NCBI GenBank assembly: GCA_010093705.1 | Contig: MU006095.1 | Location: 872,315-936,314, forward strand | DNA from: Patellaria atrata CBS 101060 | Lineage: Eukaryota > Ascomycota > Dothideomycetes > Patellariales > Patellariaceae | Length of the DNA stretch: 64,000 nucleotides | Direction: 5' to 3' | Shown here: piece after piece, positions 15,497 through 45,087 of the stretch | Position numbering within the stretch: position 1 is the stretch's first letter | How the letters are laid out: the number at the start of each line of letters is the position of its first letter | Notes under the pieces: generated by a model | Databases searched by the model: none | What the model was told of the DNA's origin: nothing | Seen by the model: only the letters and a program-made list of their open reading frames with translations | Program-made: the position numbers and the translations under genes

Positions 15497-16589
15497 ATAG
15501 CTGGGAGAGTCTGGCGTTGGTTAACTGGTGATGTCTCCGTGAGGTTTTTCGTCATTGCAAATTCAGTATATGTTTGAGCTTATGAAACATCGGTTCCTTG
15601 AGATACACAATCAGCAATCCATGGTTAAAAAAGGTCAGTAAGACCTTGATAGGATCTAACAGGGAATCACTGATTTCCATGTAAAAACGCCCTACATATC
15701 TCATTACTATCATGAAACCCCTTGGGTTATTTTGTTTGTTCTTAATTCGAGCCTTGAAGATTTGAACTCTGGACAACTCGGTTAAAGAATAGGCAAAGCT
15801 AAGGGGGCGTCCAGCGAACATCTGACCCCTACATCGATTCTAACTATTTTCGTACTGACCCCGCCCATCGTCCAGCCTCTTAAGGTCGCGTCCGTATATT
15901 TAATTGTATCTACCCTTAACAAAAGTATCAAATATCCTTCGCCAGAGCTTATAAACTGACTTTATCACTGATCCTTACGGCTTGAAGGAGCACAATTTGT
16001 GTGTCGCTGTTCTGTTACGCCCAGAAACTATACGAACGGTAGGAGAAATAAGATGATGCATTTAATGTACTGTGCTGTACAGTACTCGATTTGCGTGTAT
16101 GAGATGCTCAGCCTTCACAGGATTCTCGGCCATGTCGGCTTGTGAGCGAGCGGGATAGCCTCGCGGATGGTTTTCTACTGTTAAACCCTCTACCCTTCTC
16201 TTCCATTTCTTCATTAGTTTCCACTCTCTCGTGCGAACCTTTTGAATGCTTGCTGGACGTCATGTCTTCAAGTCCTGTTCTCGCTTCGTCAATGTATTAG
16301 ATGCAGAATTCTCATCTGGACACATTGAATCGTTGTATCCCACCTAATCTTGCCCCAGTGTAGGGAATCTTTCTTCTCAGTGCAATGCTACCTTCATATA
16401 CAGTCGTCTCTTACTAGAAGTTCTGTACAGTTCATACAACCGCCGGACGACCACACACTGAGAATTCATGAAGGGCAGATCGAGCTTCTGTAGTTCGGAG
16501 TCGATCGCGATCTTTGCGTCTGCTTTTCACGAATCCGTCATTCACTCATACCAATCGTCGTTCTCCCTCCCCTTGTACGCAGTAAAATC
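15497..16589. other. Intergenic
   Basis: No gene is visible. This spacer includes the 5' flank of the large kinase gene and a GTACAGTAC palindrome at 16077-16085 next to GTACTGTGCTGTAC. Confidence 0.5.
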
Positions 16590-19500
16590 ATGTTTGGAGG
16601 AGGGCAGGCGGGTGTGAACAGGGCTTTGTCCGACGGTCAAAACTATACAGAGCATAACTATGAGCAAGAACTATTGCCGTTTTTCCCCCCGGGATCAGGA
16701 GAAGCAAATTTTGGAGGAACGAAGTTCGAGGACAATGATTTCTTTGAGATTACTCAGATACTCGCAAGGGGCGGTAGGCGCTCCTGGAGCCGTCTACCGC
16801 GAACCTATACTATTCTACGTGTTATCGGAGCCTTGGAATACTTTGATCAAATAATTCGGGATAAGTCCACGGATCTAGCTATTCCGTATACTAAAGACAA
16901 TCTACCTAGTTGTTTGCCTCCCAACATGCGGGCCCAATTTTATTCCGCGCAGAACATTGTCTTGAGTGGAGTTCTTGAGCTTGAACAAGGTTATGCTGGA
17001 CACCACTGTCATATTTTGGACCGAGCCTCGCTACAGTTCATCACTAGAGCAAATCTTGCTCAGAATCGTGCCTCGGGTACCAGGGTAGAAAAGGTCTATA
17101 GTTCGTTAAGTGGTAGGACATTCGTCTTGAAAACGATTCGACGAAAAGGAAAGTTTTACATGGACCGAGAGACCTTAACCAACTTTGAAGCAGAACTCAA
17201 TGCTGCCAAAAAGGTGAAGCATGATCACATTGCCGTTATCGCTGGCAGTTTCACCTCTCCAACCCAAGTCGGGATAGTCATAGCGACTGTTGGCGATTGC
17301 GACCTTAGAACTTTCCTAGATGGCCAAATTGATGCTGACCGGAAATCACTACTACGGACGTGGTACGGTTGTCTAGCATCTGGATTACTAGCCCTCCATG
17401 ATGCTCAAATCCGTCATAAGGATATCAAGCCTGAGAATATACTGATCAAAAACTCCAAGGTATTTTATACCGACTTTGGCATAGCTCTGGATTGGTCCGA
17501 AAAAACCCGTGCCACCACCACTGGAAGACCTCTTCTCTTTTCCCCTCGATTTTGCTCACCTGAGGTCGCCAATTGGGACGGCCGGAACGAGTCTTCGGAC
17601 ATTTGGTCTCTTGGGGCTGTATATCTGGAGATGGTGACAAGGTTACACAATATGTCTATATCAGAATTTCGACGATTTCTCGACACCCATGGCGAACACA
17701 CCTCATCACAGTACTGCAGAAACGTTCCTGGTTTGCGGATGTGGATCTCGGAGCTTCAGGCTCGTGATTCCAGTTCCGAAAATAACCTACCGCTACCATG
17801 GATCTCGGAATGTTTTAAGGATCGAGAGGCTCCCCGGCCAACAGCTCGTAAGCTTTGGGAAATGATTGACGAGGATACTTATTCAAGTAAATTTTCCTAT
17901 GCTTGTGAACAATGTCATAAAACGCATGAATCATCCGATAGTGACACGTCTTCCGAAATGGAGCAAACCTCGTCTGAATATCCTGCACAGGCTTCCCAGG
18001 CTTCGATAAAATCGGTACCCTTCCCTACTCCTACCGGAGTGGTACAGTTACTCGATAGGAATAGAACTAGCGAGGAACTCCTCAACACAAGTGGTTTCCC
18101 ATTGTTACAACATGCTGTCCAGGCAGAAGATTCTACCTCACTTTCAGATACAACGGCTGTGGAGGAAATGGCATTTCAAGATAGCAGCTCACAGCCAGCG
18201 GGATTAATTACCGAAGCTATCTCGAGACTTGACTCAAGGAAACAGAATGCGGATATCGTTGGATCAATAAACAAACCTTCCGCTCCAGGGCTACATGTTC
18301 TTAAGCATGGAGGGATCGCAGATGACGAGGGCTATATTACTGGGTACGTTACCAAAGGTGATTTAAGGAGTCTTCAAGGTCTCGCCGTTACGCAGGATGG
18401 TCACATCCTTGACAAGCGTGGTAGAATTACAGGGTATGCTAATCTACTAGACGGAGCAGTAAAGGAGGGGGAAAACATGTTTAAGGGCATATTCAAATTC
18501 CCTAACGCAGGGTTTCTAGCACTTCGCGTCGGTGAGGAAGGCGAGATAAGAAGTGAAGATGGTATAATCGTTGGTATAGTCGTCATTGGAAACCTTACAT
18601 ATCTTACCGGTCTCTCTGTTGATGAGGACGGTCAAATTATTGACAACTACGGACATGTTAAGGGTCAGGCTAAGCCCTTAACATCCAGGAGGACAAGAAG
18701 GCGTTATCCAACATTGACATCCTCCACGGCCGAAACCGTAGGGAATGAGCGTATTAGTGAACGTAATCGTTCTTTGCCTAATTATAAGGATAGTACAAAA
18801 GATGATTCGTGGTATGCAAATCAAAAGGGCGAGAGGGCACTCTTTCCGAGTAATCATGTCGGAAATGCTAAGACTCTTGCACGGAAGATAGGTCTTCCGG
18901 TGGAAGCACAACAAGCAATTAATGATAACACACAAGGAACCCAAAAAGGCGCTGAAGAAGCTACCGAAAACCGTTTAAGACAAAAGAAAGAGACGAAACG
19001 TCAAACCGAAGCAAGACAACTTGCGGGACGAAGTCGACGAAAGGAAGAGGCAGGAATTCGTCGACGAGAGAAAATACAGGAAAGAAGAGACCAACGTCGA
19101 TGGCGAGAGGAAGAAGAAGAAGCAAGAGTCCGAGCTGAAGAAGGCAAAATAGCTGAACCTCGCCATAAAGACGAAGAAGACGCTCAACATGTTAAAAGAG
19201 AACATATTGTGAAAGAGAATGCGGAGATGCCCCCAGGAAAGCGGCATGCTCAGGACCGAAACGGCAAAAGCCGCGCCGAGTCATTTAAGGAAGAAGTGGA
19301 TGCACGAGAGAATTCGTCTGTTCTTGCAGACTCTACCGGACATTCCGCTGCTATTGTACAAAACACCGAACATGACGTGCCATTGCTCTCCGAAATTACA
19401 GATAAGATTGGAAGGCCGACTTTGGTACCATCTTGGACTGATACTAGAAAACTACCGAAAGACCACATGGAAGTCAGTGACACCATATATTTGAAAGTCG

Positions 19501-20717
19501 AAAACATTGAATACGAAGCTACGAAGGAAAATTTCAAAATCCTTTTCGAAGCATTTCCCTGTAGTGTCGCAGCCTGGTTAGGGAATACTTCTGGCTTTGT
19601 TCAAGTTCTTTATTTCAAGGAGATAGAGTCTTTTATCCGTTACTTCAACGTATTCAAGTTTATATGGAAAAAAGTTATCATGTACGGAACAGCAGATAGT
19701 GAGATCGAGGCCCTCGACCCTGAAGGTTGGTTTCAAATTGATGTCCATGACCCAGTTAGTCCTTGGGATGAACGCCGACATAACTCTATTTTGAAGGGGT
19801 ATCCGGAGTATCTGGAAAACGAAGTCTTTCCGAAATTTCGAATCGTAAACACCAATTCTGGTGACGGGTTTAAACGGGAGATTGAATCTGGATCTCCTCA
19901 GTCTTCCAAACCTCCTAAACCTAAACCTTCGCCAAACTCCCCGGCAGACAATAATACATATACTAGGCCGTCTTGGCAAGATAGATTCAACTCGTTGTTT
20001 TCCAGAAAAGACCGGCCGCCACATATTTCGACCAAATCAGATGTTACGCCGAAAGGTTCTGATACCACCTCGAAAGTATCAGATCATGAATATCGCCAGC
20101 CGCAGAGCTTTCTCCATGACGGTTCCTCAGCACGTTCACAGCCTCCTTTAATAGCCTCTGGGCATAGTAGGGCTTCAACGACGGTTTCTCAACCCATATC
20201 GACTTTGGATATAAGATTTGCAGGTGGAAGAAATTATAAAGACGATGAGGAATGGGCAAAAGCTAACCATTTAGGCGATATGTTAGATATGCGTAGATAT
20301 GATAACAATCTATCAGAGCAGCGGAAATATGAGATTCGTAAATATTATCTCGACTTAATATCAAAAGTGCGTAAAGAAATAGAGGACCAATTACTCCTAA
20401 AAGCTAGAGCGGAGAGCGCCCAACCTAAGAGCTTGTTGGATACCGAGAACTCGTTTGAGACCAAAAAACGTCAGACGTCGATGATAGAAAGGGGGACCCA
20501 ATCAAGCGACTTGTCTAATGAAATTAGCGTGGGGATAACGAATGAGTGGGATAGCTATGTATTATATCGTCACCAAAATGAGGAAGACAAGTTACCCAAG
20601 AGGCACTTGGTCAAACACCCAAGACCTGTGGTATCACATTCAGATGCCAGAACTAGGAGGATTAGAGAAACCGAACCGGAGAGGATGAGGTCCCCCCATT
20701 CGACGCGATGGACCTGA
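16590..20717 (+). CDS. Large protein kinase with DUF3659-like repeats, coiled coil and RRM-like segment, 1375 aa
   Basis: One intronless frame of 4.1 kb. Residues 1-150 resemble the N-terminal helical region of a fungal-expanded kinase family. The kinase domain spans about 160-430 with every key element: FVLKTIRR (Lys181), helix C Glu in NFEAELNAAKKV, HKDIKPENIL (His276, Asp278), TDFG (Asp295), SPEV, and DIWSLGAVYLEM. It therefore looks catalytically competent, with HKD in place of HRD. A CEQC pair follows near 440. Residues about 565-698 hold two tandem DUF3659 (LEA-like) units, seen as repeated DEDGQIIDNYGHVKGQA-type segments. Residues about 790-900 are a charged Lys/Arg/Glu coiled coil. 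Residues about 963-1037 have the strand-helix order of an RRM: IYLKVENI, then SGFVQVLYF. The C-terminus is disordered with a helical FAGGRNYKDDEEWAK block. Substrate and pathway are unknown. Confidence 0.85.
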   Translation: MFGGGQAGVNRALSDGQNYTEHNYEQELLPFFPPGSGEANFGGTKFEDNDFFEITQILARGGRRSWSRLPRTYTILRVIGALEYFDQIIRDKSTDLAIPYTKDNLPSCLPPNMRAQFYSAQNIVLSGVLELEQGYAGHHCHILDRASLQFITRANLAQNRASGTRVEKVYSSLSGRTFVLKTIRRKGKFYMDRETLTNFEAELNAAKKVKHDHIAVIAGSFTSPTQVGIVIATVGDCDLRTFLDGQIDADRKSLLRTWYGCLASGLLALHDAQIRHKDIKPENILIKNSKVFYTDFGIALDWSEKTRATTTGRPLLFSPRFCSPEVANWDGRNESSDIWSLGAVYLEMVTRLHNMSISEFRRFLDTHGEHTSSQYCRNVPGLRMWISELQARDSSSENNLPLPWISECFKDREAPRPTARKLWEMIDEDTYSSKFSYACEQCHKTHESSDSDTSSEMEQTSSEYPAQASQASIKSVPFPTPTGVVQLLDRNRTSEELLNTSGFPLLQHAVQAEDSTSLSDTTAVEEMAFQDSSSQPAGLITEAISRLDSRKQNADIVGSINKPSAPGLHVLKHGGIADDEGYITGYVTKGDLRSLQGLAVTQDGHILDKRGRITGYANLLDGAVKEGENMFKGIFKFPNAGFLALRVGEEGEIRSEDGIIVGIVVIGNLTYLTGLSVDEDGQIIDNYGHVKGQAKPLTSRRTRRRYPTLTSSTAETVGNERISERNRSLPNYKDSTKDDSWYANQKGERALFPSNHVGNAKTLARKIGLPVEAQQAINDNTQGTQKGAEEATENRLRQKKETKRQTEARQLAGRSRRKEEAGIRRREKIQERRDQRRWREEEEEARVRAEEGKIAEPRHKDEEDAQHVKREHIVKENAEMPPGKRHAQDRNGKSRAESFKEEVDARENSSVLADSTGHSAAIVQNTEHDVPLLSEITDKIGRPTLVPSWTDTRKLPKDHMEVSDTIYLKVENIEYEATKENFKILFEAFPCSVAAWLGNTSGFVQVLYFKEIESFIRYFNVFKFIWKKVIMYGTADSEIEALDPEGWFQIDVHDPVSPWDERRHNSILKGYPEYLENEVFPKFRIVNTNSGDGFKREIESGSPQSSKPPKPKPSPNSPADNNTYTRPSWQDRFNSLFSRKDRPPHISTKSDVTPKGSDTTSKVSDHEYRQPQSFLHDGSSARSQPPLIASGHSRASTTVSQPISTLDIRFAGGRNYKDDEEWAKANHLGDMLDMRRYDNNLSEQRKYEIRKYYLDLISKVRKEIEDQLLLKARAESAQPKSLLDTENSFETKKRQTSMIERGTQSSDLSNEISVGITNEWDSYVLYRHQNEEDKLPKRHLVKHPRPVVSHSDARTRRIRETEPERMRSPHSTRWT

Positions 20718-36601: not shown

Positions 36602-38071
36602 ATGTCGTACGGAATTGATACCAGCGCTATAACAGTATGATTTATGGCTAAACTATAACCATCAATATCTGCTAACATCCGAAAGATGGCAGGTCTTCCG
36701 GCCACGGGTGATCTGCAGCCTCCGATTCTGGACGGGAGCTTAAATGACCTTGGTACTCTTGATATGGACATCGACTTCTCCCAAGCTGAAGATCCCCTCT
36801 CACAACCATATCCTTCAGACATGTCGAAACAAATGTTACAGCAACCAAGCCCTGCTGGCTCTAACGATACATCCTCCGTCTCCCAGAAAAATTCCGGTAT
36901 TGGCGCCGGTCCTTTACCTACCGGCTTTGGTATGCCCAGTGCCAACAATTTGGGGAGCACCTTGACAGAGTTCACAAAAAGGAGGAACTGGTCTCAGCGC
37001 GTATTAGAAGAAATTCGTGATCTTTTGCACATTCTCACCCCTGGTGGTCAAATCCTCTACGTCTCCCCGGCATGTAAGCAGCTAACAGGCTATGAACCGC
37101 AAGCATTGGTGGGTCAGTATATTAAGGATTACATACATCCGGAGGACCTAGGGCTTTATGTTCGGGAATTCAACGAGTCCATCGCCACTGGTAATCCAAT
37201 GCGTTTTTTCCACCGTTTCAAAAAACCAGATGGGAACTATACTATATTTGAATCGCATGGGCACCCACACTACAGTGGGGATATTCCTCGTTTCCCGCAT
37301 GACAATGGGCTAAATATAAACCCAGTGTTACACGCATGTCAAGGCTTCTTCATGATGTCGCGACCGTTTCCGACCAAAAGCGCAACGCTTCTCGATTCGT
37401 TCCTCGAACACAAGACGGAGAACATGCGCCTTCTGAAAAAGATAGCTGATCTGAAGCGCGAAGAGCAAGAAGAACAAGAAGAAGATAACCAGACGCATTT
37501 TCAGGACAGGAGCAGTCTTCGAGACGGTATCACACCGGATACCAGAGGCTCAGTCAGCCCCAACTACGACGGCATGCCTCCTCCAGCCAAACCGGGAATA
37601 TCGAACACCGCTTTAACGCGTCAGAACCTCGACGAAGCACTCGCAGCGAGCCAGCCGGACTCTATAAATGACAAAATGGCGAGATACGAGGGCGCAACAC
37701 ATATTGAAACCATTGAGATGCTCACTGGTCTTCGCTATAGAGATGGTGAGCGGTCGATGGGTATATCTACAGGCGATACAAGTCCAAACTTGATAAGAGG
37801 TGATGCTGGTATTGCAATATTTGTAGACAAAGATGGTAGAAGAGAAGGCGACAAGAAGAAAAAACTCAAGGTATCGGATGAATACGTATGCACAGACTGC
37901 GGGACACTCGATTCCCCTGAGTGGAGGAAGGGCCCGAATGGTCCTAAAACTCTGTGCAATGCCTGCGGACTTCGATGGGCAAAACGAGAGAAGAAAAGAC
38001 AAGGGGTTCACGGGTCAGCCTCAGGATTAGTTCCTTCAAAGCTTCAACATTCTAATTCCAATGGCAGTTAA
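36602..38071 (+). CDS. wc-2: White collar 2 (PAS plus GATA zinc finger), 472 aa
   Basis: Exon 36602-36634 codes 11 residues ([11 protein letters not shown]); after a 51-bp intron, exon 36686-38071 carries the rest. WC-2 pairs with the blue-light receptor WC-1 to form the White Collar Complex, a nuclear transcription factor for light and clock genes. A single PAS domain spans about 105-235 ([58 protein letters not shown]), and [20 protein letters not shown] follows as in Neurospora WC-2. A putative coiled coil [10 protein letters not shown] comes next. The GATA zinc finger is at about 413-440 ([12 protein letters not shown]...LCNACGLRW). No LOV cysteine motif is seen, as expected for WC-2. If the tiny first exon is wrong, translation could begin at the ATG at 36686. 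Confidence 0.95.
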
Positions 38072-42999: not shown

Positions 43000-44532
43000 T
43001 CAATCCTTGTCGTCATTCATCTTCTCAAATTGCCGTTTGGTAATAGTCAAACTCTGATAGGCGTCTCGGGAAGAGTCTAAAGGTATGTCAACCAAGGGAT
43101 TATCACCCTCATCTTCATAGTCCAAAGTATAACGGTCTCCTATTGCTTCAGATAGAGATGCCACGATGATAGCGATAATGTGTGGACCAAAATATGGCTT
43201 CGCCGGACACACGAAAGGCTTGGTCCCGAAAGCCATAAAAATCCTCCTCAGGACACCCTCTCTCAATTCAGACCACCGTTCCGGTACAAATTTGGTTCGG
43301 TCTTCGCCCCATGCTTGCTCGTTCCGTTGCGAGCTTTCAATATCCGCGGCAAGCATCGTAAGCTCGTAATTGTCGACGTTGATATATTCGGCGTGATAAG
43401 GGCGGTGGAGAAAGTGCCGGTAGACACGGCGAGTTGGTGGATAGAGACGCAACGCTTCCATTGCGATCCACTGCGCAGAAACGTTGTCCTCCTTGCGCAA
43501 TAGGTTTGCTCTAGTAGGTTCTCTGAGGAAGTTTCGAAGAATTGAGCGCCAAATCTCCTTATTAGGGCTGTCTCTTGAGACAACTTCGATGAAGCAGCGG
43601 AGCACAACGCGCCAAAGTGTCTCGTACGCTGGGAGTATTAAATTCATCGGATTCTGTCTATCCAGGAGAGGATTGAGGTTTGGTAGGATATTCCGTAATG
43701 CCTGATGAATATCACCCTGAGCGACCCAGTTCTCCAACGTTTCTGGTTCCTTTGATGCGAGCCAAATACGGTTGATCTCCTTCGCGACTATACTAACGCT
43801 AATATCGTTTACGCTGTGCGGGTTGACATCGAAAAGGACAGCGAGTGATAGTTTAAGCGTCAAATTTTGAACTATTGGTACGAGCGGGAGCTTGATGTCG
43901 TTCTCGGGAAGTTTCCCCAGTAAAACTTTACTGGCATCTCCAGCGATAATGTACCATTCCTCGTCTGTAATCTTAATGAGCCTTTCCGTGAATGACCTGA
44001 ATTGTTTATTGTAGTCGTTGTTCACAGTTGTGAAAGAATTGTTTATGCCAAAAGCTGCAACCAAGCGCTGATTAGGTCCAGAACGAGACTCGAGTTGTGA
44101 AAGGATATTGGGGGTATTAATAATGTGCTGTGTCTGCATGATGCTTTGACAGCTGCCTACATCGTCGCGAATAATTTGGCTACTTGGATGTGTAGGCCGA
44201 TAGTGTATGATAGGAAGCGGGTTTGAGAAGATATGGTTTCCATAAACATGGCGTGTATGCGTCCACATCAAAGTATAGAAAGGGATTGAACAAATTAGGA
44301 GTGTTGCGAGGCGATTGACAATGCTAGGCCCACAATTGGAGCAGTAGAATTCGCCAATGATAGACGATGTCCACATAAGACATTGCCAAAGTGACAATGC
44401 AAAGCAGTAATCTAAGAAGAGATGTTTATGTAAGAAATGTTTTTCTAGCCTCACGTGCCTCATCAGCACCTTTGCTGATAGTAAGGCCAGCAACATGAGG
44501 AGTGGGAAGTGGGTGATTAAGGAATCGACCAT
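43000..44532 (-). CDS. Atypical cytochrome P450, 510 aa
   Basis: A single exon. I start at the ATG at 44532 (MVDSLITHFPLLMLLALL), because the longer frame to 44712 opens with TTG. An N-terminal hydrophobic anchor fits an ER-bound enzyme. P450 marks: the K-helix ExxR in EALRLYPPTRRVYR, the PERW motif in KFVPERWSE, and a heme loop FGTKPFVCPAKPYFGP with the axial Cys near residue 445. The loop lacks the second glycine and the usual Arg/His before the Cys, and the I-helix AGxxTT signature appears as LPAYETLWRVVLRC. These changes are shared, as I recall, by a group of fungal P450-like proteins, so this is probably a divergent monooxygenase rather than a pseudogene. The substrate is unknown, and no biosynthetic genes lie beside it. 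Confidence 0.78.
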   Translation of the reverse strand: MVDSLITHFPLLMLLALLSAKVLMRHVRLEKHFLHKHLFLDYCFALSLWQCLMWTSSIIGEFYCSNCGPSIVNRLATLLICSIPFYTLMWTHTRHVYGNHIFSNPLPIIHYRPTHPSSQIIRDDVGSCQSIMQTQHIINTPNILSQLESRSGPNQRLVAAFGINNSFTTVNNDYNKQFRSFTERLIKITDEEWYIIAGDASKVLLGKLPENDIKLPLVPIVQNLTLKLSLAVLFDVNPHSVNDISVSIVAKEINRIWLASKEPETLENWVAQGDIHQALRNILPNLNPLLDRQNPMNLILPAYETLWRVVLRCFIEVVSRDSPNKEIWRSILRNFLREPTRANLLRKEDNVSAQWIAMEALRLYPPTRRVYRHFLHRPYHAEYINVDNYELTMLAADIESSQRNEQAWGEDRTKFVPERWSELREGVLRRIFMAFGTKPFVCPAKPYFGPHIIAIIVASLSEAIGDRYTLDYEDEGDNPLVDIPLDSSRDAYQSLTITKRQFEKMNDDKD

Positions 44533-45087
44533 TTTGTAAATGATTATCAGATTTGTAATGACTGCAGCAGATGATAGCGAGTTATGGATTGAGACAATAA
44601 AGACGGAGAATGAGGGCGTATATATGTGAGAAATAAGGGAACTTCGATGATTGTCCAAACAGTATCCAAACATTGACAGGAAGAGAACGTGAATGAGAAT
44701 ATTTGAAAGCAAAGACCATGAGAGAGGTTTTATTATTCTTTATGTTGAAGTTGTTTTGTGCTTTGAAAATCTATGCTCCCGGACAGCGATTACTCCCTAA
44801 GCTGGTGTGAGTGAGGTGGACTACCGTGCTAGCATGGGACCTGGTTTACTATTTTGAAATCAATTCCTCTTCTCTATTGGCTGTAAATCATTCCACGTAT
44901 AGCAACCACGAAGCAAGAGAGTAGTGTTGACTATGGCAAAGAAGCAGGTTTAGATAACGCATATTATTTGTTTCGGGAATGTTTCATAGATAAAGGTATC
45001 ATTGAACATTTCTTTAAAGCACACTTAGGACAAATATACATTCATCGCAAAAATTCATTTTACATATAATAAAACACATACCAGCAA
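44533..45087. other. Intergenic
   Basis: AT-rich sequence between the P450 start and the SDH4 stop. The open frame extends upstream of the P450 ATG to 44712 but without an ATG start. No other gene is visible. Confidence 0.5.

Follow-up and report, generated by a model that had tools for sequence, protein, structure and literature searches.

A modular kinase with two DUF3659 units in Patellaria atrata and its possible relation to a resident 14-unit protein

How does a fungal protein kinase come to carry a domain that is otherwise part of a large non-kinase protein of the same genome, and what might it do with it? The question is raised by one gene in a 64,000-nucleotide stretch of Patellaria atrata CBS 101060 (contig MU006095.1, positions 872,315 to 936,314), referred to here as the window. 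The gene is an open frame of 1375 amino acids at 16590..20717 on the + strand, on which all of its parts described below are located, and extends from ATG to TGA. As the original prediction had stated, it is uninterrupted, and it lies within a stop-free frame of 1407 codons that starts at 16494. Its product is modular in architecture, is one of two fusions of this kind in the genome, and carries DUF3659 units that are similar to those of a resident protein with 14 of them. Our preferred reading, held at roughly even odds, is that of a modular kinase whose captured DUF3659 units serve as docking sites for partners of the 14-unit protein.

Three Pfam families were matched by the window protein at E <= 10, namely Pkinase, DUF3659 and, over the kinase region, PK_Tyr_Ser-Thr. 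DUF3659 (PF12396) was matched twice, with 95.8 bits for the two units together against a cut-off of 24.8 and with each unit singly above that cut-off, which bears out the two LEA (late embryogenesis abundant)/DUF3659-type units proposed originally. Unit 1 (residues 567-621, 18288..18452; 52.5 bits) and unit 2 (residues 645-698, 18522..18683; 57.9 bits) are 45% and 59% identical, respectively, to unit 93600 of the locus C15. A DUF3659 scan of the 28.3-Mb genome gave 18 matches at three loci, with 14 at C15, two in the window gene and two at C26. At two of these three loci DUF3659 is joined to a kinase of the same family, in opposite domain order. The C26 fusion (L021:2764-5094) is a stop-to-stop frame of 776 codons in which the DUF3659 pair precedes the kinase (a unit at residues 140-197, kinase at 426-746), the reverse of the window gene; its kinase has HQD and DFS in place of HKD and DFG. 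The C15 protein (L022:1957-7086) is a 1709-codon frame with 14 units and a DUF6987 C-terminus, and one stretch of it also matches the beta-flower family Bflower_2. Its N-terminus is repetitive and LEA-like by eye. Alignment of the DUF3659 units, window sequence included, gave seven invariant columns, six of them glycine and one aspartate.

Searches beyond the family itself returned little for DUF3659. A single-sequence AlphaFold2 (AF2) model of the domain had a predicted local distance difference test score (pLDDT) of 38 and no Foldseek match at E <= 0.001, and profile matches in the PDB were weak (best E 0.019), with no single stretch passing. The link between DUF3659 and beta-flower repeats consists of Pfam overlaps alone. 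No relative was confirmed among 366 pattern matches in viral contigs; prokaryotic genomes contained at least one distant beta-flower-like protein among the matches listed. One such protein, of 2255 residues with beta-flower and DUF3659-like repeats, is encoded in an alphaproteobacterial metagenome-assembled genome (L045:3585-10352), and a hydrophobic stretch is visible by eye near its N-terminus.

Whether the two fusions share one origin was approached through trees of the kinases and of the units. In the kinase tree (25 rows, of which L026 and L040 are under half filled; three of 22 inner branches starred), the window kinase groups with L023, L024 and L026 (89/87), and the nearest rows by path are L023, L024, L026, L025 and L028. 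The C26 kinase groups with L032 and L041 (100/100), in neither of which the genome-wide scan found DUF3659. One clade for the window and C26 kinases was rejected by the approximately unbiased (AU) test (p 8.45e-5). The unit tree (18 rows, 60 columns; two of 15 inner branches starred) places both window units in a six-row set with four C15 units (99/99), within which they group with C15_93600 (93/98). This nesting would be in keeping with the resident protein as the source of the added domain, but holding the 14 C15 units together and apart from the rest gave an AU p of 0.0608, which is near but not below 0.05. Independent acquisition of DUF3659 by the window and C26 kinases is likely from these sequence comparisons, because the fusions sit in different kinase clades and the window units group with one type of C15 unit; the kinase tree and the reversed domain order carry most of the weight.

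The protein kinase domain (residues 165-422, 17082..17855) matched PF00069 at E 1.3e-27, and its score of 97.3 bits is above the curated cut-off of 31.7. It keeps VLK with its lysine, a glutamate in the helix-C stretch, HKDIKPEN, DFG, SPE (for APE) and DIWSLG. In a motif table of 25 kinase domains its glycine-rich loop reads LAQNRASGTRV, and LGxG is found in nine of the 16 other domains that have residues at these positions; L023 and L024, which were trimmed in the table, have LGxG in their frames. The kinase had been described as apparently active, and the motifs cited for this (VLK, HKD, DFG, SPE and DIWSLG) are indeed present, but since the glycine-rich loop is degenerate, activity is uncertain from the sequence. 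A pseudokinase scaffold, in which catalysis is lost and the protein tethers partners via DUF3659 and its C-terminal part, would fit that loop and the clear losses elsewhere in the family: L034 and L037 lack both the HxD and DFG aspartates, and L031 and L042 lack the DFG aspartate (motif table). Possible pseudokinases have likewise been raised as a question for the Ffk kinases of Aspergillus nidulans (PMC3591445; this and the other papers are cited for the portions of their text that were available). We nevertheless consider the scaffold quite unlikely, given that the lysine, HKD, DFG, SPE and DIWSLG are all kept.

Ahead of the kinase lies an N-terminal domain (residues 23-142, 16656..17015) that is common to five kinase paralogues. 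The alignment of these six sequences has 20 invariant columns; the domain matched no Pfam family at E <= 10 and had no convincing PDB relative in a profile search (best E 0.95). The N-terminal domain and the kinase form a module common to the window gene and the five paralogues, and what follows this module differs between them. L025 has ankyrin repeats both in the kinase's own frame and in the next, L028 has them in separate downstream frames, and in L023:1632-4430 (C8) two LIM domains occupy a separate frame directly downstream of the kinase. The kinase and LIM frames of L023 and the kinase and ankyrin frames of L028 are each likely one gene. The frames scanned downstream of L024 and L026 matched no Pfam family. 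Matches to L023, L025, L026 and L028 are interrupted or contain inserts, as by introns; the match to L024 (residues 31-405) is without interruption.

The wider family is large. A protein search of the own genome with the window protein gave at least 36 matches. Eight are on C15, through DUF3659 only; the others belong to the window gene itself and to 23 further kinase loci, and all 23 among the matches listed were retrieved for comparison. Membership of an expanded kinase group, as first suggested, is upheld by these at least 23 other kinase loci and by the kinase tree. Two further loci were noted for their layout. L029:3096-5432 (C5) has two tandem kinase domains in a single frame, and L027:2521-6711 (C4) is a 1396-codon frame with the kinase mid-frame and a long unmatched C-terminus, with C2H2-like cysteine/histidine patterns ahead of the kinase by eye.

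The window kinase is modular and probably specific to filamentous fungi, and the comparisons suggest that its family picks up parts of other proteins as docking or bait modules. If it docks on partners of the 14-unit protein, the DUF3659 pair would be a targeting or sensing module, a role that we infer, bringing the kinase to whatever structure or partner the 14-unit protein builds or binds. This contact would relieve or localise the kinase, which would then phosphorylate that partner or a downstream substrate; a charged segment of the protein may act as a spacer, and an RNA-recognition motif (RRM)-like part, if real, as a second contact. Several points weigh against this proposal. Pfam lists DUF3659 as of unknown function, a full-text literature search for DUF3659 or PF12396 found no paper naming either, and the function of the window protein is our inference only. 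The degenerate glycine-rich loop counts here too, leaving kinase activity uncertain. The six rows with the N-terminal domain are split from the C26 group (100/100), yet in the best tree of all 25 rows they do not form a single clade; such a clade was itself not rejected (p 0.463). The C26 units stand elsewhere in the unit tree, on long branches and one with odd composition. Holding the four kinase-borne units together, the same split as that for the C15 units above, gave an AU p of 0.0585, so their common origin is not firmly excluded, and the direction of transfer is not proven because a single fungal genome was searched.

The same observations could be read in terms of defence. The DUF3659 pair might mimic a resident protein that is attacked by foreign molecules, such that binding to the mimic would activate the kinase and set off defence or cell death; by analogy with systems discussed below, this would make the gene an integrated decoy. 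The added domain resembles a non-kinase protein that one further locus in the genome encodes, and the domain was acquired in two clades and in both orders within an expanded family, some members of which are without catalytic residues. Two paralogues have ankyrin repeats, a usual sensor module of fungal NOD-like receptors (NLRs; PMC10197012), and the same logic has been proposed for cereal kinase fusions (PMC10260397) and for fungal NLRs (PMC12258605). Yet no nucleotide-binding domain was found in the window protein (Pfam at E <= 10), an attacker and a defence phenotype are hypothetical for DUF3659 proteins, and docking on a normal partner accounts for the same data. We regard the decoy as doubtful. 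The present data do not separate docking on partners from bait for an attacker of the 14-unit protein, but docking needs fewer assumptions. A still broader generalisation, again by analogy, is that filamentous fungi may have a repertoire of kinase-based innate receptors, the counterpart of cereal kinase fusions, with a conserved N-domain/kinase module and swappable sensors; the sensor here would be a decoy copied from the resident multi-DUF3659 protein and acquired at least two times in one genome. We offer this as a rather unlikely extension. The likeness between the added domain and the product of another locus in this genome provides a concrete candidate partner for such a kinase, and the window gene links DUF3659 to signalling.

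The remaining parts of the protein are less readily assigned. A linker (residues 423-566, 17856..18287) is 20-30% serine and threonine across most of its length by composition. The segment at residues 781-900 (18930..19289) is highly charged, with 50-62% D, E, K and R. A long charged coiled coil had been proposed in this part, and the charge is there, but no coiled coil could be demonstrated: the hydrophobic excess at heptad a/d positions over residues 805-925 was 0.343 against a shuffled mean of 0.326, and 391 of 1000 shuffles were as high.

The proposed RNA-recognition fold, at residues 968-1033 (19491..19688), gave a borderline signal. At E <= 10, Pfam had no RRM match for the complete protein or for two fragments spanning the segment, and the segment was missing from the 115 matches of a genome-wide PF00076 scan at the same threshold; the best E in a PDB sequence search was 8.3. 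An AF2 model made without an alignment showed strands and helices ordered much as in an RRM, but at a pLDDT of 48 it is too poor to use, and Foldseek found no match to it at E <= 0.001. Profile comparisons with hhalign used RRMs from the same genome. In a first run with all nine RRMs in the profile, the segment scored 17.1, with three of 60 shuffles higher, and one of 13 other 106-residue stretches (901-1006) scored 18.1, via residues 968-989 and hence via the RRM-like segment itself. The positive control used in that run belonged to its own profile, and controls were left out of the profile in the two later runs. The main test comprised ten profile versions (nine leave-one-out and one with all nine RRMs) and 219 decoys (120 shuffles and 99 real segments). 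The segment scored 14.9-22.5 against 58.5-108.8 for the nine left-out true RRMs; it was above all 219 decoys in six of the ten versions, and in each of the remaining four between one and five decoys equalled or passed it. With one of the ten versions, in an earlier run, none of 400 shuffles and none of 211 real segments had reached its score. The signal depends on which RRMs make up the profile, and a divergent RRM-like fold is possible from the sequence.

C-terminal to this, residues 1100-1375 (19887..20714) form a tail that is low-complexity and then charged by composition, with no confident relative. In Pfam, the C-terminal part gave T6PP_N alone, at E 0.12 and under the cut-off, and the FunK1 model, which we take to be in the library, had no match at E <= 10 in the window protein. 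A search of the own genome with residues 941-1375 turned up no relative (best other match E 0.75), and the gene has a GC content at third codon positions (GC3) of 0.411, the third lowest of 15 genes and frames compared (a Nup62-like gene at 0.397 and L032 at 0.409 are lower) and not extreme. Both would be in keeping with a fast-evolving paralogue that has no settled role and carries its extra domains along. However, 1375 codons are open and the kinase and DUF3659 signatures are intact; decay would have broken both the frame and the domain signatures, and we consider this account very unlikely.

The gene had also been portrayed as standing alone, like a lineage-specific insertion, and as notable for its lack of introns. 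Neither description held. The upstream neighbour, a frame matching the end of an ammonium-transporter family, ends 1093 bp from the gene, and the downstream neighbour, an FRG1-like gene on the opposite strand, ends 1053 bp away; other genes in the window are RAD50-like, PAS-GATA, ABC, M16 peptidase and Nsp1-like, and known Pfam families were matched by nine of ten neighbouring frames scanned. An insertion or transposon origin was considered and is unsupported, because each flank of the gene matched only itself in the genome and the repeats around it are short only (20-24 nt). Nor are the spacers of about 1 kb or the single exon unusual, since the RAD50-like neighbour has a frame of 1389 codons and stop-to-stop frames in paralogues run to 1396, 819 and 779 codons. 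A scan for hidden introns, limited to strict splice consensus, gave a single candidate 5' site; it could pair with either of two ends (77 and 86 nt), and each of the resulting introns would be out of frame. Elsewhere in the window, a 579-codon frame at 43000-44739 is cytochrome P450-like by eye, with no Pfam match at 1e-5, and 36659-38071 encodes a protein with PAS and GATA zinc-finger domains, which we take to be WC-2-like.

Among known systems, the Ffk kinases are the nearest named group, and the window kinase resembles them, as compared by description only. The Ffk set of A. nidulans comprises 11 kinases described as restricted to filamentous fungi and as frequently expanded or lost; ankyrin repeats are listed for three of them (FfkA-C) and not for FfkD-K (PMC3591445). 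Like the Ffks, the paralogues of the window gene include kinase and ankyrin genes, and unlike them the window gene has DUF3659, which does not appear in the available Ffk descriptions. Pfam found no ankyrin repeats in the window protein itself; since the listing gives none for FfkD-K either, this speaks only against the FfkA-C subtype. Ffk mutants were made (FfkJ and FfkK were not deleted) and no phenotype was identified (PMC3591445). Fusarium genomes have on average 41 unclassified kinases (PMC6001611). Fungal kinase-associated domains have been treated without DUF3659 in the accessible text of PMC2838846, and in that of PMC9815663 'kinase' occurs in the reference list only. A 'LEA domain protein' is named in A. 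fumigatus tables (PMC6168859, PMC10455693). Literature searches joining fungi, kinase, ankyrin and NLR-like or STAND (signal transduction ATPases with numerous domains), and for the HKDIKP motif, found no paper. With the C15 14-unit protein the window gene shares the DUF3659 domain, and its units fall among the C15 units in the best tree; it differs in having two units only and no DUF6987, and the C15 protein has no kinase.

Lr9 is reportedly, like Sr43, a cereal kinase fusion protein. For the cereal proteins, Sr43 among them, repeated fusion events have been described and a decoy model proposed (PMC10260397), and as in the window gene and its relatives a kinase is joined to unrelated domains in repeated fusions. 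Unlike the window gene, they are plant proteins for which disease resistance was tested, and the likeness is one of logic only. In fungal (Sordariales) NLRs, extra domains have been proposed as integrated decoys, and the origin of an extra domain there was found in a core gene present as a single copy (PMC12258605), which recalls the relation between the window units and the C15 protein; unlike these NLRs, the window protein has no nucleotide-binding domain that we could find. Kinase domains in fungal NLRs are mentioned in PMC10197012 and PMC12258605, with the window kinase family not described in the available text of either. The two arrangements are also opposite in direction: in the fungal NLRs a CHK2-like kinase is the added part (PMC12258605), whereas in the window gene the kinase receives the added domain.

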